From Lutibacter sp. (GTDB lineage Bacteria > Bacteroidota > Bacteroidia > Flavobacteriales > Flavobacteriaceae), in the NCBI GenBank assembly GCA_028696945.1, contig JAQVGD010000003.1, positions 1-48,950 on the forward strand: 48,950 nt of DNA. The letters run 5' to 3'. The notes under the pieces are model-generated. The model was not told the origin of the DNA. It saw only the letters and a list, made by a program, of their open reading frames with translations, and ran no database searches. This document shows positions 1 through 18,286 of this stretch, piece by piece (the stretch's first letter is position 1; each line of letters opens with the position of its first letter). Position numbers and translations under genes: made by a program.

Positions 1-32
1 TTTTCATCTGTTTAATTTTTATTTTTTTATTG

Positions 33-95
33 TTACAGCTGATGTTCGCCATTAATCATTCTGCTGTGTATCAAAATTTGACCTGCTCGTTTCAT
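33..95 (-). CDS. Candidate small ORF A of the repeat unit (20 aa)
   Basis: Fourth unit from the lytic transglycosylase. It encodes MKRAGQILIHSRMINGEHQL and then an early TAA. The unit is followed by a further ATGAAA-type junction at the window edge, so another unit or a gene start may lie to the left. Confidence 0.22.
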   Translation of the reverse strand: MKRAGQILIHSRMINGEHQL

Positions 96-99
96 CTGT

Positions 100-183
100 T
101 TACATTTTATTTTTCTGTTGGTACAGCTGCTGTTCGCCATTAATCATTCTGCTGTGTATCAAAATTTGACATGCTCGTTTCAT
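100..183 (-). CDS. Candidate small ORF B of the repeat unit (27 aa)
   Basis: This is the longest ORF of the array. The peptide begins MKRACQILIHSRMINGEQ and ends with QQKNKM. It has exactly the same length as the 27-codon ORF in the solitary copy before asd, which ends PQKNKI, with no indel between them across 88 bp. It is followed by TAA, then ACAG and the ATG of the next unit. No homologue is known to me. Confidence 0.3.
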   Translation of the reverse strand: MKRACQILIHSRMINGEQQLYQQKNKM

Positions 184-201
184 CTGTTTATATTTTATTT
201 T

Positions 202-270
202 TTATTGGTACAGCTGCTGTTCGCCATTAATCATTCTGCTGTGTATCAAAATTTGACATGCTCGTTTCAT
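202..270 (-). CDS. Candidate small ORF C of the repeat unit (22 aa)
   Basis: Second unit of the array. The peptide starts MKRACQILIHSRMINGEQ and stops after QLYQ. A 1-bp deletion relative to the unit at 90-177 moves the frame onto an earlier stop, so it is five residues shorter than ORF B. Expression is unproven. Confidence 0.25.
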   Translation of the reverse strand: MKRACQILIHSRMINGEQQLYQ

Positions 271-288
271 CTGTTTATATTTTATTTT

Positions 289-357
289 TTATTGGTACAG
301 ATGCAGTTCGCCATTAATCATTCTGCTGTGTATCAAAATTTGACATGCTCGTTTCAT
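289..357 (-). CDS. Candidate small ORF D of the repeat unit (22 aa)
   Basis: This is the first unit after the lytic transglycosylase gene. Its ATG overlaps that gene's stop codon as TAATG, an arrangement that would allow translational coupling by reinitiation. The peptide starts MKRACQILIHSRMINGEL and ends HLYQ. The overlap and the repeated start are seen directly. Whether the peptide is made is inference, and the ORF may simply be carried by a DNA repeat. Confidence 0.3.
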   Translation of the reverse strand: MKRACQILIHSRMINGELHLYQ

Positions 358-1883
358 TAATTAAATATTTTTAATTTAATTCCAGGTTTTAGACTTTTTA
401 CACTCCAAATATTGTTCCATTCTTTAATGTTTTGTACAGAAACATTTGAATATTTTTTTGCGATAGACCATAAAGAGTCTCCTAGTTTTACAATATAAAA
501 AGTATGTTCCTCTTGATTGCTTTTAGCTGGAGTAGTTTTTACGGCAACAACAGGCTTCGGATTTTTTGGATAAATCACTAATTTTTGACCAATTTGTAAT
601 CTGGTGCTTTTTAAGTTGTTCCAACGTTTTAAGCTACTTTCAGCAACTCCATGTTTTGCAGCTATTTTTCCTAAATATTCACCACTTTTCACTTTATGCG
701 TAATCATAGAACTCATTTCTACATATTCCGGAATTGGCTTTTCTCGTTTTGCATCTTCAATATCAGCATAGGCATAAATCAATTTTTCATTACTCACGAA
801 ATTTCCGTTATCTTTTATGGGTAAAGTCAACACATGTTTTTCATCCTTCACATAAGGGATGATTTCCAGTTTGTATTGCGGGTTTAAAAATTTTAGCACT
901 TCAATATCAACGTTTAATGTCTCGTTAATTTGTGCAAAAGTCAACTGTCTTTTTACTAGAACGGTATCCGTAGCATAGTACGAAATAGCGTTTTCTTTGG
1001 CTTTTAAGTTGTGTTCATTTGCAAATTCAAAAATGTATAAGGTTGCGTAAAATGCTGGTACATAAGCGGCAGTTTCTCCAGGTAAATATTTACGAATATT
1101 CCAATAATTGGTACTTCCTCCAGATCTTCTGATGGCTTTGGAAACATTTCCAGGTCCCGAATTATAAGCCGCCAAGGCCAAACTCCAATCACCATACATT
1201 TGATATAAATTTTCCAAATACATACAAGCTGCTTCTGTAGCCCTGAAAGGATCTGATCGTTCATCTATATAGGAACTTACCTCTAAATTATATAATTTAC
1301 CTGTTTGATACATAAATTGCCACAATCCCGTTGCGCCCATGCGAGAACGTGCATTTGGATTTAAGGCCGACTCTACAACCGCCAAATACTTTAATTCCAT
1401 AGGAATATTATATTTCGCCAAATGTTCTTCAAACATAGGAAAAAAGTAACGTGCCCTTTCCATAATGGTAGAAAGCGAAGATTTTCTTTTTTGCAAATAC
1501 GTCCTAATTATTTGCTCTAACTGAGGATTGTATTCAATATTAAAAGGTGTTTTGCTGTTTAAATATTTCAAACGTTCTTTTAATAGATCAGTCGATAAAT
1601 CTTCAAGATCCGTAACCAATATTTCGTCATCTCCCAAAATATATTGTGCAGTATCATATAAAGGAGATTTTACCAATTCATTAATCCATAAACTATCAAT
1701 TAACATAGCATCTGAATGAATTTGAAGCACTAAAGAATCAGGATTCTTAAAAGAAAATAATACACTATCTGATAAATATTCTCTGATATTTTCATTTTTA
1801 TCAGATTCGGAAGTCTCTGATTTCGTTTGTGAAAACCCAAAACCAAAAAATAATAAAAACGCAATATATACTATATTTTTCAT
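357..1883 (-). CDS. mltD: Secreted LysM lytic transglycosylase, MltD-like
   Basis: A murein-cleaving lytic transglycosylase of 508 residues expected to act in the periplasm. Residues 1-19 form a signal peptide ending FGFSQ. The SLT/GH23 domain spans about 140-280: the catalytic Glu is E171 in VVESALNP, followed by GATGLWQFM and AYNSGPGNV. Two LysM peptidoglycan-binding modules follow, near 390-440 and 460-508, the second running to the C-terminus. The layout and length are those of MltD-type enzymes. The gene is 6 nt downstream of the OmpA-like lipoprotein gene on the same strand, so both may form a cell-wall operon. The stop codon overlaps the first ATG of the repeat array as TAATG. The family call is firm; mltD is the nearest familiar name, not proven orthology. 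Confidence 0.9.
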   Translation of the reverse strand: MKNIVYIAFLLFFGFGFSQTKSETSESDKNENIREYLSDSVLFSFKNPDSLVLQIHSDAMLIDSLWINELVKSPLYDTAQYILGDDEILVTDLEDLSTDLLKERLKYLNSKTPFNIEYNPQLEQIIRTYLQKRKSSLSTIMERARYFFPMFEEHLAKYNIPMELKYLAVVESALNPNARSRMGATGLWQFMYQTGKLYNLEVSSYIDERSDPFRATEAACMYLENLYQMYGDWSLALAAYNSGPGNVSKAIRRSGGSTNYWNIRKYLPGETAAYVPAFYATLYIFEFANEHNLKAKENAISYYATDTVLVKRQLTFAQINETLNVDIEVLKFLNPQYKLEIIPYVKDEKHVLTLPIKDNGNFVSNEKLIYAYADIEDAKREKPIPEYVEMSSMITHKVKSGEYLGKIAAKHGVAESSLKRWNNLKSTRLQIGQKLVIYPKNPKPVVAVKTTPAKSNQEEHTFYIVKLGDSLWSIAKKYSNVSVQNIKEWNNIWSVKSLKPGIKLKIFN

Positions 1884-1889
1884 AAGAGA

Positions 1890-2840
1890 TTAGTTGTTTA
1901 AAAGTTTTGAAATTTCGTCTAAGTTAGGCGCAAGAATAATCTCGATTCTTCTATTTTTAGCTTTTCCTTCTGAAGTTGCATTGGTATCAACATTTATATA
2001 TTCGCTTCTTCCAGCCGCAGTAATTTGCGTTGGGTTTACGCCCTTGTTTTGTAAAATCCTTACAATCGCTGTCGCCCGTTTAACGGATAAATCCCAGTTG
2101 TCCAACACAGTTGCTCCAGTATAAGGAACATTGTCTGTATGCCCTTCAATAAGCACGTTGATATCGGGATTTTTTGACAACACACTTGCCAGTTGTTCTA
2201 CAGCTTTTTTTCCTTCATTACCTACCGCCCAACTTCCTGAATCAAACAGTAATTTATTTTCCATAGACACATAAATTTTTCCATTTTTATGAACAACGGT
2301 CAATCCTTTTCCTTCAAAATTAAGCAAAGCACTGGAAATGGCATCTTTTAACTGTTGCATTTGGGCTTCTTTGGCATTAATTAAATTTTGAAGTTCGTTA
2401 ATTTGGTTTGAACGTTCTGCCAATTCATTTTGAAGATTTTCCAATCGGGCACTTTCAAGAGCCAATTTTCTTTCCTTTTCTTCCAGTTGCACCAATAATT
2501 CCTGATTTTTTTGGGATTGCTCCGCTAACTTTTTTGAGCTTTGTGTTGAAAGGACATTATAAGATTCGTCTAAATTATTATATTTATGTTGAAGTGAAGC
2601 AAACTCATTATCTAAAATTTCCTTTTGGTTTGAAAGTGTACTGTAATCACTGTTAAGCTTTTCTAAATCGGCTTCCAGCACTTTTTTTGCAGCCAATAAA
2701 TTATCTTTTTCTTCAATTAATGCTGAATTTGAAGAACGTAAATTATTGAATTTTGTTTCTAATTCCTGATATATTTTTTTAGATACACATGAATTTAGCG
2801 TGATTGCTATAATGAATAGAATTGCTGTTTTTTTTAACAT
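1890..2840 (-). CDS. OmpA-family lipoprotein with coiled coil
   Basis: A 316-residue envelope protein. The N-terminus MLKKTAILFIIAITLNSC is a lipoprotein signal with the lipidated Cys at residue 18. A long Gln/Glu/Lys-rich coiled coil covers about residues 25-170. The C-terminal OmpA/MotB-like peptidoglycan-binding domain covers about 190-310, recognised by the LIEGHTDNVPY core and a GKAKNRRIEI ending. It probably tethers the outer membrane to the wall, with the coiled coil spanning the periplasm. It lies directly upstream of the lytic transglycosylase and downstream of xth. OmpA-type lipoproteins with such stalks are common in Bacteroidota; the specific partner is unknown. Confidence 0.88.
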   Translation of the reverse strand: MLKKTAILFIIAITLNSCVSKKIYQELETKFNNLRSSNSALIEEKDNLLAAKKVLEADLEKLNSDYSTLSNQKEILDNEFASLQHKYNNLDESYNVLSTQSSKKLAEQSQKNQELLVQLEEKERKLALESARLENLQNELAERSNQINELQNLINAKEAQMQQLKDAISSALLNFEGKGLTVVHKNGKIYVSMENKLLFDSGSWAVGNEGKKAVEQLASVLSKNPDINVLIEGHTDNVPYTGATVLDNWDLSVKRATAIVRILQNKGVNPTQITAAGRSEYINVDTNATSEGKAKNRRIEIILAPNLDEISKLLNN

Positions 2841-2863: not shown

Positions 2864-3625
2864 TTATTCAATTTCAACTACGATGGGACAATGATCCGAA
2901 TGTTTTGCTTCCGGTAAAATATAGGCTCTTTTTATTCTGTCTTTCATGTAATTGCTTACCATATTGTAATCTATGCGCCAGCCTTTATTGTTGTTTCTTG
3001 CATTTGCTCGGTAACTCCACCAAGTGTAATGATGCGGTTCTTTGTTTAAATGACGGAACGAATCTGTAAAACCGCTGTCTATAAAATTCCCGAGCCAGTT
3101 GCGCTCAACGGGCAAAAATCCAGAAGTATTTTTATTCTGAATCGGGTTATGAATGTCAATTTCTGTATGGCAAATGTTGTAATCACCACAAATAATGAGG
3201 TTGGAAATTTCCCTTTTGAGCTTGTTTATATAGCCCTGAAATTGAGCCATATAATTAAGTTTGAAATCCAGTCGGTCATCATTGGTTCCGGAAGGTAGGT
3301 ATAAACTCATTATTGACACCTCCTCAAAATCAATTCGTAAATTTCTTCCTTCATTGTCCATGGCCTCAATTCCAGTGCCATAAACCACCTTGATGGGTCT
3401 CGTTTTTGATAAAACGGCCACACCGCTATAACCCTTTTTTGTTGCAGAAAACCAGTAATGGTAAGGATAGCCAGCATTGTCGAACAAACTTAAATCCAAC
3501 TGTTCTTTATTTGCTTTTATTTCCTGCAAACAAATAACGTCGGGGTTCGCGGCCACTAACCATTCAATAAAACCTTTATTTAAGGCAGCCCTAATTCCGT
3601 TAACATTGTATGATATTATTTTCAT
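2864..3625 (-). CDS. xth: Exodeoxyribonuclease III
   Basis: A 253-residue AP endonuclease / 3'-5' exonuclease for base-excision repair. Motifs in order: ISYNVNGIRAA at the N-terminus, CLQEIKA with the metal-binding Glu, GYSGVAVLSK, GDYNICHTEIDIHNP, WWSYRANARNNNKGWRIDY and the C-terminal HSDHCPIV, whose Asp-His pair is catalytic. I place the start at the ATG encoding MKIISYNVNG; a longer frame begins 11 codons upstream at 3658 but adds residues outside the fold. It sits 23 nt before the OmpA-like gene on the same strand. Confidence 0.95.
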   Translation of the reverse strand: MKIISYNVNGIRAALNKGFIEWLVAANPDVICLQEIKANKEQLDLSLFDNAGYPYHYWFSATKKGYSGVAVLSKTRPIKVVYGTGIEAMDNEGRNLRIDFEEVSIMSLYLPSGTNDDRLDFKLNYMAQFQGYINKLKREISNLIICGDYNICHTEIDIHNPIQNKNTSGFLPVERNWLGNFIDSGFTDSFRHLNKEPHHYTWWSYRANARNNNKGWRIDYNMVSNYMKDRIKRAYILPEAKHSDHCPIVVEIE

Positions 3626-11450: not shown

Positions 11451-11534
11451 ATGAAACGAGCACAACAAATTTTGATATACAAAGGAATAATTAATGGCGA
11501 ACAGCATCTGTTACCGCAAAAAAATAAAATTTAA
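11451..11534 (+). CDS. Candidate leader ORF in the repeat before asd (27 aa)
   Basis: A 27-codon ORF begins MKRAQQILIYKGIINGEQ and ends with PQKNKI, then TAA, four bases (ACAG) and the asd ATG. It is colinear with ORF B of the left array. Most differences from ORF B change the amino acid, which argues against strong selection on the peptide. It could act as a coupled leader peptide or merely be part of a DNA repeat. Confidence 0.28.
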   Translation: MKRAQQILIYKGIINGEQHLLPQKNKI

Positions 11535-11538
11535 ACAG
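11451..11538 (+). repeat. Solitary inverted copy of the left-edge repeat, ending at the asd ATG
   Basis: This 88-bp stretch matches the reverse complement of the 1-354 array units base for base over most of its length, with no indel against the 90-177 unit. Shared blocks include ATGAAACGAG, CAAATTTTGATA, ATTAATGGCGAACAG and AAACAGATGAAA. In the array, the position of the next unit's ATGAAA is taken here by the asd start ATGAAA at 11539. The copy therefore supplies the entire immediate leader of asd. Confidence 0.9.
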
Positions 11539-12531
11539 ATGAAAGTAGCTGTTGTAGGCGCAACTGGAATGGTGGGAAACGTGATGTTGCAAGTGTTGGC
11601 GGAAAGAAATTTTCCAATTACGGAATTGTTGTTGGTTGCCTCAGAACGTTCTGTTGGTAAGCATATTGAATATAAAGGAAAAAAATACACCATTATTGGC
11701 ATGCAGGATGCCGTTGATGCGCGCCCTGATATTGCTTTATTTTCAGCAGGCGGAACTACTTCTGAAATCTGGGCTCCAAAATTTGCTGAAGTTGGAACTA
11801 CGGTTGTTGACAATTCTTCTGCCTGGAGAATGGATCCAACCAAAAAATTGGTAGTTCCTGAAATTAATGGCAACGAACTAACCAAAGAAGACAAAATTAT
11901 TGCGAATCCAAACTGCTCAACCATTCAATTGGTAATGGCCTTGGCTCCTTTGCATAAAAAATACCACATGAAACGCGTGGTCATTTCTACCTATCAATCG
12001 GTTTCTGGCACTGGCGTAAAAGCCGTACAACAACTTGAAAATGAGTCGAAAGGCATCAAAGGAGAAATGGCTTATCACTATCCAATTAACAGAAATGCCA
12101 TTCCGCAGTGTGATGTGTTTTTAGAAAACGGCTATACCAAAGAAGAAATGAAATTGGTGAAAGAGCCTAAGAAAATATTAAATGACGATTCTTTTTCGGT
12201 TACCGCAACCGCCGTTCGTATTCCAACGTCGGGCGGACATTCGGAAGCGGTGAACGTTCAGTTTGAACAGGATTTTGACTTGAGCGAAGTGCGTAAATTG
12301 TTAAGCGAAATGCCCGGAGTTATTGTTAAGGACAATTTGGATACCAATACCTATCCGATGCCAATTTACGCGCACAATAAAGATGAAGTTTTTGTTGGCA
12401 GAATTAGAAGGGATGAATCGCAACCAAACACCTTAAATATGTGGATTGTGGCCGATAACCTTCGCAAAGGTGCCGCAACAAATACCATACAAATTGCAGA
12501 ATACCTGATTGTAAATAAGTTGATTGGTTAA
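11539..12531 (+). CDS. asd: Aspartate-semialdehyde dehydrogenase
   Basis: A 330-residue NADPH-dependent enzyme converting aspartyl phosphate to aspartate semialdehyde, the branch point for Lys/diaminopimelate, Met and Thr. Visible motifs: the nucleotide-binding GATGMVGNVML at the N-terminus, the catalytic Cys C126 in NPNCSTIQLV, SVSGTGVKAV and the IPTSGGHSEAVNV segment with the active-site His. The start at 11539 (MKVAVVGATG) fits the fold exactly. The upstream in-frame ATG at 11494 lies within the repeat copy and would add 15 unrelated residues. It is divergent from the U32 gene. Confidence 0.96.
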   Translation: MKVAVVGATGMVGNVMLQVLAERNFPITELLLVASERSVGKHIEYKGKKYTIIGMQDAVDARPDIALFSAGGTTSEIWAPKFAEVGTTVVDNSSAWRMDPTKKLVVPEINGNELTKEDKIIANPNCSTIQLVMALAPLHKKYHMKRVVISTYQSVSGTGVKAVQQLENESKGIKGEMAYHYPINRNAIPQCDVFLENGYTKEEMKLVKEPKKILNDDSFSVTATAVRIPTSGGHSEAVNVQFEQDFDLSEVRKLLSEMPGVIVKDNLDTNTYPMPIYAHNKDEVFVGRIRRDESQPNTLNMWIVADNLRKGAATNTIQIAEYLIVNKLIG

Positions 12532-16808: not shown

Positions 16809-16864
16809 ACTTCGGACTTCGGTCTTCCGACTTCGGACTTCGGGCTTCGGGCTTCGGACTTCCG
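16809..16864 (+). repeat. Heptanucleotide minisatellite (ACTTCGG-type, 8 copies)
   Basis: Eight consecutive 7-mers of ACTTCGG or its one- or two-base variants (TCTTCCG, GCTTCGG, ACTTCCG) run from 16809 to 16864. The array ends 11 nt before the folB -7 element, so the -33 region of that promoter lies within it. Copy-number change would shift upstream promoter sequence. Confidence 0.9.
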
Positions 16865-16875
16865 ACTTTTCACAC

Positions 16876-17259: not shown

Positions 17260-17390
17260 GGACAAGTTGCGATCTGTTCATACTTATGAATTTAAAATCG
17301 TAAATCAATTTGCGTATTCTATGATAAAAAGCAAGAAAAAATTATAAAAAAACTCCGAACCAAAAAATTTAACCGCAAAGTGCGCAAATA

Positions 17391-17636
17391 AAAACCGCAA
17401 AGGGCAAAGTTTTATGCTAAGTTCGTTAGATAGCTAAAATCTGCTTTGTGCAACTTCGTGGCTCTCCGAGAAACTCCGCGTAATTAAAAGCTATTACACG
17501 GAGATTCACAAAGATAAACACAAAGGTTCACAAAGTTTTAAATCACAATAAGTCAATTATTGACTAATCTCTATTTTAACCGAAAATGCCAATTTTGTTT
17601 TGGTTAACATTTGATTGCGCCAGGCAAAATTCCTAA
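17391..17636. repeat. Module B, copy 1 (246 bp)
   Basis: First copy of the longest module of the mosaic. It starts AAAACCGCAAAGGGCAAAG and ends GGCAAAATTCCTAA. The inverted repeat at 17470-17499 has arms CTCCGCGTAAT and ATTACACGGAG; on the minus strand the only imperfect position becomes a G-U pair, so the structured strand is probably minus. Confidence 0.88.
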
Positions 17637-17654
17637 TCCCGATAGCTATCGGGA
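17637..17654. repeat. 18-bp palindrome TCCCGATAGCTATCGGGA
   Basis: A perfect palindrome located exactly between module B copy 1 and module A copy 2. It is absent at the other two B-A junctions, where AATCGGA is found instead, so it looks like an insertion or a site replaced in the other copies. I recall this palindrome as common between genes in flavobacterial genomes. Confidence 0.8.
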
Positions 17655-17748
17655 CGTAAATCAATTTGCGTATTCTATGATAAAAAGGAAGAAAAATTTA
17701 TAAGAAGACTCCGAATCAAAAATTTATTAAACGCAAAGCACGCAAATA

Positions 17749-17994
17749 AAAACCGCAAAGGGCAAAGTTTTACGCTAAGTTCGCTAGATGACCAAAATCT
17801 GCTTTGTGCAACTTCGTGGCTCTCCGAGAAACTCCGCGTAATTAAAAGCTATTACACGAAGATTCACAAAGATAAACACAAAGGTTCACAAAGTTTTAAA
17901 TCACAATAAATCAATTATTGGCTAATCTCTATTTTAACCAAAAATGGCAATTTTGTTTTGGTTAACATTTGATTGCGCCAGACAAAATTCCTAA
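17749..17994. repeat. Module B, copy 2 (246 bp)
   Basis: The same length as copy 1 with scattered substitutions. One change (CGGAG to CGAAG in the inverted repeat) keeps pairing as a U-G wobble on the minus strand. Confidence 0.88.
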
Positions 17995-18225
17995 ATCGGA
18001 AATCAATTTGCGTATTCTATGATAAAAAGCAAGAAAAAATTATAAAAAAAACTCCGAACCGAAAATTTATTAACCGCAAATAAAGACCGCAAAGCGCGCA
18101 AAAAAGTTTTTTTATATTTTAAACTTAAAGTTGGTTAAACTACTTTAAATATGGATTTTGAAATTATTGATAGTACATCCTAATTGCGTATTCTACGATA
18201 AAAACCAAATAAAAAATCATAAAAA

Positions 18226-18255
18226 TCAATTCAATTCAATTCAATTCAATTCAAT
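18226..18255 (+). repeat. Pentanucleotide microsatellite (TCAAT)6
   Basis: Six perfect TCAAT copies lie between a degenerate module A piece and module B copy 3. It is prone to slippage but is not near any gene. Confidence 0.92.
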
Positions 18256-18286
18256 TTTGCATTTAACCGCTAAATAAACGCAAATA

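Follow-up and report, generated by a model that had tools for sequence, protein, structure and literature searches.

The four tandem units at one end of the stretch of DNA analysed here (the window, 48,950 nucleotides from a Lutibacter genome) are best read, judging from comparisons of sequences among lineages, as copies of a non-autonomous mobile 5′ leader of about 90 bp. We suggest, with moderate confidence, that this leader inserts at the hexamer ATGAAA and that a helix (P2) formed with the start codon of the downstream gene lowers or gates translation of that gene.

The array was recovered by Tandem Repeats Finder with a period of 87 bp (4.1 copies, 95% matches, span 2-357), and a repeat search of the window gave four copies in register, with spacings of 88, 87 and 87 bp. 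This confirms the original prediction, made from the sequence of the window alone, of four minus-strand units of 87-88 bp arranged head to tail, the first of which begins within the TAATG stop of a lytic transglycosylase gene; the units occupy 8-357, and the first begins at position 357. All four minus-strand units open with ATGAAACGAGC. In unit-free relatives (L069 and L103), TAATG is the native overlap between the mltD stop and the start of the next gene. The units abut without spacers, and the array is thus not a CRISPR, as had been stated. Bases 1-7, which read ATGAAAA on the minus strand, form the contig end; they probably open the next gene, whose start in L103 is ATGAAAAA, as a fifth unit would be expected to show ATGAAAC and is the poorer match. 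The features of the window are as follows; they include a single unit at 11451-11538 that the original note did not mention.

1..7, minus strand: ATGAAAA, a copy of the target at which the downstream DUF4837 gene probably starts, truncated where the contig ends (from the gene order of orthologs in L103 and L069)
8..95, minus strand: array unit 4, 88 bp, adjoining the downstream gene; internal hexamer CAGCTG, one mismatch from full pairing with CAGATG
96..183, minus strand: array unit 3, 88 bp
184..270, minus strand: array unit 2, 87 bp
271..357, minus strand: array unit 1, 87 bp, beginning with the ATG of the TAATG overlap at the mltD stop
357..1883, minus strand: upstream gene, mltD-like lytic transglycosylase with SLT and LysM domains (Pfam)
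2864..3625, minus strand: xth-like exonuclease gene, unit-free in the window and filled in L065, L071 and L072 (Pfam and locus comparison)
11451..11538, plus strand: single unit directly before the asd start at 11539 (covariance model, 103.4 bits)
11505..11510, plus strand: 5′ arm of P2, CATCTG, of the single unit before asd (read from the unit sequence; pairing tested at the family level)
11536..11541, plus strand: 3′ arm of P2, CAG plus the ATG start codon of asd (read from the unit sequence; pairing tested at the family level)
11539..12531, plus strand: asd, aspartate-semialdehyde dehydrogenase, carrying the unit at its start (Pfam PF01118 and PF02774)

The closest named relatives of the transglycosylase are from Lutibacter and other Flavobacteriia MAGs, which places the host close to Lutibacter. 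Other repeats were also seen in the window. A 358-bp tandem repeat of 2.2 copies occupies 17299-18080, with related sequence to about 18400, in a long stretch without a listed gene; it is rich in the motifs accgcaaag..gcaaag and cttcgtggctctccgagaaactccgcg. The heptamer ACTTCGG is repeated 8.6 times at 16809-16868, and the pentamer TCAAT 6.2 times at 18226-18256.

When up to three mismatches were allowed, a 27-base core of the unit matched 202 places in the source genome, 104 on one strand and 98 on the other, while the reversed control matched none. The 37 congeners held 0 to 95 core matches each, and 25 of the 38 genomes of the genus had at least one. The search for the 88-bp unit in this genome and its relatives, which had been proposed as a check, has thus revealed a dispersed family (an earlier whole-genome search with the array listed 49 matches, and 40 candidates were scored). 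Tandem arrays range from one to eight units. A second cassette, B, is 89 bp long (11 complete units were read) and alternates with type A in the same orientation, for example as A-A-B-A-B-A-A. Head-to-tail units of high identity could also arise as an ordinary minisatellite by local slippage, but the dispersal over many contigs in both orientations, the single copies in other genera and the empty alleles make such an origin barely credible.

In a test limited to genomes with at least five sampled units, the nearest unit came from the same genome in 61.4 of 111 cases, against a mean of 14.7 and a maximum of 28.5 with shuffled labels. Most of this excess came from the source genome, G000 (29.2 of 37), and from G018 (18 of 18), which carries its own homogeneous unit variant; the signal was absent in G002 (1.2 of 12) and G013 (0 of 5). 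As the nearest unit is often in the same genome, we infer that copies of the element amplify within at least some lineages. Several contigs of the source genome (C41, C185, C279, C112, C58 and C45) have an end within or near an array, so that the element probably limits assembly and the copy numbers are perhaps underestimates. REP-like palindromes of the CCTGC..GGCAGG type were seen inserted within units (L070, L064, L042 and L235); two kinds of small mobile repeats therefore nest.

At the locus of the window, two relatives (L103 and L069) carry an empty allele, ...AATTAATGAAAAA, in which mltD adjoins the DUF4837 gene directly, and two others (L072 and L073) carry a filled one with exactly one unit, reading ...AATTA, then ATGAAACGAGC...AAACAG, then ATGAAAAAG. 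Among the 23 relatives displayed of 80 loci, 5 were filled, 13 had a short empty junction and 5 had other sequence. An old decayed copy is present at the DUF4837 start in another Lutibacter MAG (L084), and L077, with a closely matching flank, is empty. At the xth locus, 3 of the 18 relatives displayed were filled, and L066, whose flank is near-identical to that of the filled L072, lacks the unit. In the compared alleles, ATGAAA (ATGAAG in L066) marks the empty site and flanks the insert at either end. By this comparison of alleles, the units insert precisely at ATGAAA and duplicate the hexamer. Their orientation is fixed, with the element directly upstream of the ATG. The view that this is a miniature repeat spreading next to start codons is well supported by the precise junctions, by the filled and empty alleles and by the amplification in some lineages. 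In L066 and L071, this start codon carries different insertions, which lie between mltD and the DUF4837 gene and end in a B-like tail (..ACAAATAAAAAAACAATAAATA.. followed by ATGAAA); these are probably diverged members of the same superfamily.

The loci compared held 180 distinct arrays or single copies, of which 14 were cut by a contig or locus end. Among the 166 left, 143 open an ORF of at least 60 aa at the junction, 21 open a shorter ORF and 2 have no start-like codon, and ATGAAA was found in 158 of 164 junction hexamers. Three cross-label duplicates were then removed (L027 is the same as L207; L070, L072 and L073 have 60 bases in common). The tabulation originally proposed, of copies that end at an ATGAAA start, thereby gave ATGAAA at 155 of 161 junctions, a count that admitted start-like codons only, and an ORF of at least 60 aa in 140 of 163, with some copies not at genes. 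Without the limit to start-like codons, ATGAAA was found in 93 of 100 cases in six genomes, and 81 of the 100 arrays stood at an ORF start. In other genera, ATGAAA lies at the end of the element in 21 of 28 copies (counting the nearest ATG gave 24 of 27), and an ORF of at least 60 aa begins at the nearest ATG in 25 of 27 loci. The 20 junctions from distant orders and another class read ATGAAA (15), ATGAAC (3) or ATGAAT (2); 13 of these 20 copies start an ORF, and two of the remainder run into another unit. Genes bearing the element include those which we take, from their protein starts, to be aspartokinase, xerD, lpxD, ksgA and metG.

This association with starts is explained in part because ATGAAA is a common gene start. 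Among ATGAAA sites that are either non-coding or starts, starts make up 51% in the source genome's own loci, 48% in four relatives, 65% in L204-L262 and 79% in L064-L098, where the null masks element-bearing sites and the last set, taken around one locus, is biased. Targeting of ATGAAA together with the loss of gene-breaking copies explains much, but not clearly all, of the association. These shares, 48-65% in three of the four sets, are in keeping with a selfish repeat without any role in expression that inserts at any ATGAAA, loses its gene-breaking copies and is harmless at starts. The copy number, ranging from 0 to 202 within the genus, also fits this alternative, as do copies clearly not at genes, for instance within a REP-like element (L029 and L059) and at L037. 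It sits less well with the presence of ORF starts at 81 of the 100 arrays from the six genomes and, in other genera, at 25 of 27 loci, with the covariation of P2 across orders and classes, and with the conservation of some orthologous copies where synonymous sites are near saturation (see below). We consider it rather improbable.

It had also been proposed that the repeat is a leader-peptide cassette with related peptides. The related peptides of 20-27 residues are indeed encoded in frame by the units of the window (22, 22, 27 and 20 residues), and their MKRA-x-QILIHSRMINGE core is one of several frames; but ORF length is kept neither among units nor among lineages. The 115 type-A unit ORFs of the source genome fall into 30 of up to 5 aa, 36 of 6-16 aa, 20 of 17-24 aa and 16 of at least 25 aa, with the ATG lost in 13, and among gene-proximal units of all lineages, 69 of 155 stop within 5 aa. 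Frameshifts and early stops are common, and a reading of the unit alignment revealed much variation at non-synonymous positions (CAG/CTG, CAT/CAG and GGC/AGC). A leader-peptide cassette or attenuator was therefore rejected and is, in our judgement, highly improbable. A promoter for the downstream gene was likewise set aside, as the flavobacterial promoter motif TANNTTTG is not kept between lineages in the alignments that were read.

Helix P2 consists of an internal hexamer, CATNTG, paired with CAN′ATG, the last three bases of the element plus the start codon, with compensatory changes. In diverged units from other Lutibacter and another family, the hexamer and the tail match: CATCTG occurs with CAG-ATG, CATGTG with CAC-ATG and CATATG with CAT-ATG. 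Cassette B has CATTTG with CAA-ATG where an ATG follows. The helix has six pairs, three of which involve the nearly fixed ATG, and encloses a 24-base A-rich loop. Among the distinct rows from 155 gene-proximal units, 151 have a letter at both partners of the variable position, and in 145 of these the two form a Watson-Crick pair. CAGCTG with CAGATG, which breaks one pair, occurs in 26 of the 155 units, including unit 4 of the window.

Three alignments were examined: A2, a non-redundant alignment of 57 units that is the basis of the covariance model; A3, 28 aligned copies from 27 loci in genomes outside the genus, which were not used in model building; and A4, 20 copies from four genomes of distant orders and another class. 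In A2, P2 was 95.5% paired, against 87.1 ± 1.1% in shuffles, and sliding the partner by one to three columns lowered this to 6-49%. Its column pair 68-103 had the highest mutual information among the pairs passing the pairing filter, being Watson-Crick in 55 of 56 cases with three types (GC 27, CG 24, AU 4, other 1, gap 1). In A3, the helix was 97.0% paired (82.5 ± 1.7% when shuffled) with a covariation of 0.425 (0.143 ± 0.024), and four of its six pairs changed on both sides, which 7 of 500 shuffles reached. In A4, it was 97.4% paired (90.7 ± 1.3%), with double-sided change only at the N pair. Percentage paired and covariation score lay above all 500 shuffles and all slid controls in A2, A3 and A4, although A3 and A4 were aligned with the P2-containing model, which favours P2 somewhat, and several rows are orthologs or close copies. 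Of the five measures used, the two that count pairs changed on both sides and further pair types were not above shuffles in A2 (500 and 484 of 500) or A4 (348 and 75 of 500); they fail on A2 because one pair carries the covariation.

Two compensations in A3 deserve mention, CTG-ATG with CATCAG (L305) and AAG-ATG with CATCTT (L310). In four Flavobacteriaceae orthologs (L293, L295, L297 and L299), the triplet is ATA or GTA, pairing is kept and an ATGAAA start lies five bases downstream, so that P2 does not hold the start codon itself there. Wobbles in A2 and A3 together were G.T on the sense strand in 12 cases versus A.C in 4, a bias in the sequences that favours a structure on the mRNA strand (or its single-stranded DNA) over a protein-bound double-stranded inverted repeat. 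Unconstrained folding of eight selected distant examples predicted P2 in all eight and both helices in seven.

The second helix, P1, found outside Lutibacter, has the form AAY-GA-GCAT...ATGC-GA-RTT. Its AAY, at positions 5-7 (the AA of the upstream ATGAAA and the first base of the element), pairs with RTT just before P2, and these outer pairs enclose GA/GA and GCAT/ATGC; in Lutibacter the outer part of P1 is lost. P1 and P2 together were 90.4% paired in A3 (79.2 ± 1.1% shuffled), a figure that is not independent since P1 was read off A3. In A4 they were 94.7% paired (90.3 ± 0.7%), with no shuffle as high and slid controls at 15-33%. By text match, the Y/R pair is T-A in 16 and C-G in 6 of the 28 copies of A3 (5 not recognised, 1 mismatch), and T-A in 10 and C-G in 10 of the 20 copies of A4; by column count it fails in 7 rows of A4, namely those from G506, whose copies have a helix longer by one base. 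L296 has Watson-Crick pairs in place of the GA/GA step. The hairpin is strong in f2, G506 and other genera and weak in type-A units (mean z −0.5 for 15 sampled), being weakest in the lineage with the most copies. Folding a single type-A unit gave z of 1.5 and 0.3 on the two strands, and alifold of a mixed alignment gave 0.0; the structure thus emerged only from lineage comparison. Covariation in type-A units between the extra C of GAGC(C)AT and ATRGC was not convincing (A in 1 of 40 versus 6 of 63). A variant with a long P1 hairpin (GACAAAATTTTA..TAAAATTTTGTC), also in tandem, was seen in L223 and L231 (G037).

Of 296 genomes of the order searched with the covariance model, 31 matched; they belong to several families and to 19 of the 91 genera. 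When 296 genomes were drawn from the whole phylum, 17 matched, and the 5 new ones among them comprised four from other orders and one from a different class. There were 38 pairs of orthologous insertions. Five pairs selected from these have matching flanks and units that are still 87-94% identical, while identity is 31-65% at 4-fold sites and 87-98% in the upstream flanks (the xerD-like pair G012/G031, G032/G013, G035/G036, G019/G036 and G000/G029). In the four pairs with G018 as the partner, the flanks are 80-90% identical and the units only 71-79%, and the units there seem to have been replaced or converted rather than simply conserved. Old copies, to judge from these pairs, can be retained and constrained, though not uniformly.

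In the reading that we favour, the gene's own upstream promoter, left intact, would drive transcription through the element, which would give the mRNA a new A-rich 5′ leader. P2 would partly hide the start codon, lowering or gating translation, and as every target supplies an ATG, the lock would work on any gene landed on. The base at position −3 is C in 79 of 85 cases. In F. johnsoniae, A at −3 is reported to favour initiation, and the bases around starts tend to be unpaired (PMC6847099). With another base imposed at −3 and the AUG paired, translation may be expected to be lowered or gated. More tentatively, the elements might be start-codon cassettes found across the phylum, in which the internal anti-start would pair with the ATG of a single-stranded intermediate for targeting and would then lock translation of the mRNA, the sequence used for recognition during mobility being the regulatory element as well; we regard this extension as doubtful.

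It is also conceivable, though on the unlikely side, that both helices serve mobility and not translation. A recombinase would then recognise the junctions and prefer ATG, with effects on translation as by-products; RTT and CATNTG, which lie next to each other inside the element, would pair with the two ATGAAA-containing ends, either as single-stranded DNA or within an RNA guide. The two copies of the duplicated hexamer each contribute part of one helix, which suggests recognition in single strands, and such a role would be in keeping with a target that is nearly always ATGAAA, with the absence of terminal inverted repeats and with the pairing kept by some copies not before an ORF (L209 and L213). 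However, four orthologs keep standard P2 pairing despite a changed ATG, suggesting selection in place, the fold is weakest in the lineage that has amplified most, and no enzyme fits. Among the 12 multi-copy genomes, a Y1/HUH transposase (PF01797), which a REP/RAYT or IS200/IS605 derivative would call for, is absent from five (G018, which is 88% complete, G037, G313, G318 and G328), and IS110 (DEDD_Tnp_IS110), the family with bridge RNAs, is absent from eight and present in only four. Reverse transcriptase (RVT_1) is present in 15 and absent from 23 of the 38 genomes of the genus, including 9 of the 14 copy-rich ones. The genes may have been lost after amplification in these cases.

Within the genus, Y1 is present in 13 of the 14 genomes with at least 10 copies versus 7 of the 24 others. 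The Y1 genes of element-rich Lutibacter genomes (L263-L282), which we take to be RAYT-like, lie mostly beside palindromic repeats of their own type (19 of the 20 flanks were inspected). These 20 Y1 stretches hold three copies of the element: in L274 a copy immediately precedes a Y1 gene, in L268 a copy follows one at a distance of 65 bp, and the third lies further off. No copy in the covariance-model scan of these stretches encloses a Y1 gene. Despite the correlation, Y1 was set aside as the mover given its absence from 5 of 12 genomes, its own palindromes nearby and the lack of any enclosed gene. No autonomous longer copy with the same ends was seen at the 30 of 61 head-motif places inspected in 12 genomes. 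The window array had no match in phage or plasmid collections, and the type-A core none in viral contigs; seven viral contigs with one of two 17-base cores proved to be unrelated sequence without a covariance-model match.

Dispersed intergenic repeats that can fold as RNA include BOX, RUP, Correia and ERIC, whose sequences and targets differ from those of the present element; to our knowledge, none of them inserts exactly at, or pairs with, start codons. Leaders that sequester the start codon, such as RNA thermometers, have a helix containing the AUG and are fixed to particular genes. The present element would work likewise, but it moves, and the genes before which it inserts are unrelated. 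REP elements with Y1 transposases (RAYT) are dispersed, short, non-autonomous repeats of many copies. Both kinds are multi-copy and both occur in this genome, but the element has no REP palindrome, and Y1 is absent from several multi-copy genomes. With MITEs it has in common a target duplication (ATGAAA on both sides, the hexamer being constant). Terminal inverted repeats define a MITE as a derivative of a DDE transposon, whereas the ends here, CGAGC.. and ..AAACAG or ..AACAC, are not inverted repeats, the inverted pair being internal sequence versus the 3′ end. The BrickBuilt MITE of Porphyromonas gingivalis is likewise a short, dispersed, multi-copy, intergenic element of Bacteroidota with tandem repeats; its ends are small inverted repeats and its distance from coding sequences is 49-591 nt, whereas the element here abuts the start exactly and duplicates ATGAAA (PMC4596501). 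Direct repeats of TAACTGA lie a few bases 5′ of start codons in Beggiatoaceae, Cyanobacteria and some Bacteroidetes, with a proposed translational role, but these are heptamer arrays of different sequence, and the abstract reports neither a mechanism of spread nor a helix with the start codon (PMC4679880). The element fails the testable defining features of MITE, REP/RAYT, IS110 and CRISPR, and exact insertion at a start codon combined with a helix containing that codon matches no kind known to us. Rfam gave nothing at the gathering score on window positions 1-2000 and 27 loci except two tRNAs; three sub-threshold matches (E 0.18-0.38) were to RNA families of plants or animals, and one of these overlapped the L323 unit on the opposite strand. 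A search of the open-access literature by topic and sequence motif, with subscription papers outside its scope, found no description of the element.

If the favoured reading is true, mobile DNA would rewire translation gene by gene, landing on start codons and pairing with them, in a phylum largely without Shine-Dalgarno sequences. This would be a new route to translational control for genes, housekeeping ones such as asd included. For engineering in Bacteroidota, it would also supply a naturally occurring, portable lock on the start codon, and it would point to a recombination activity that reads ATGAAA.
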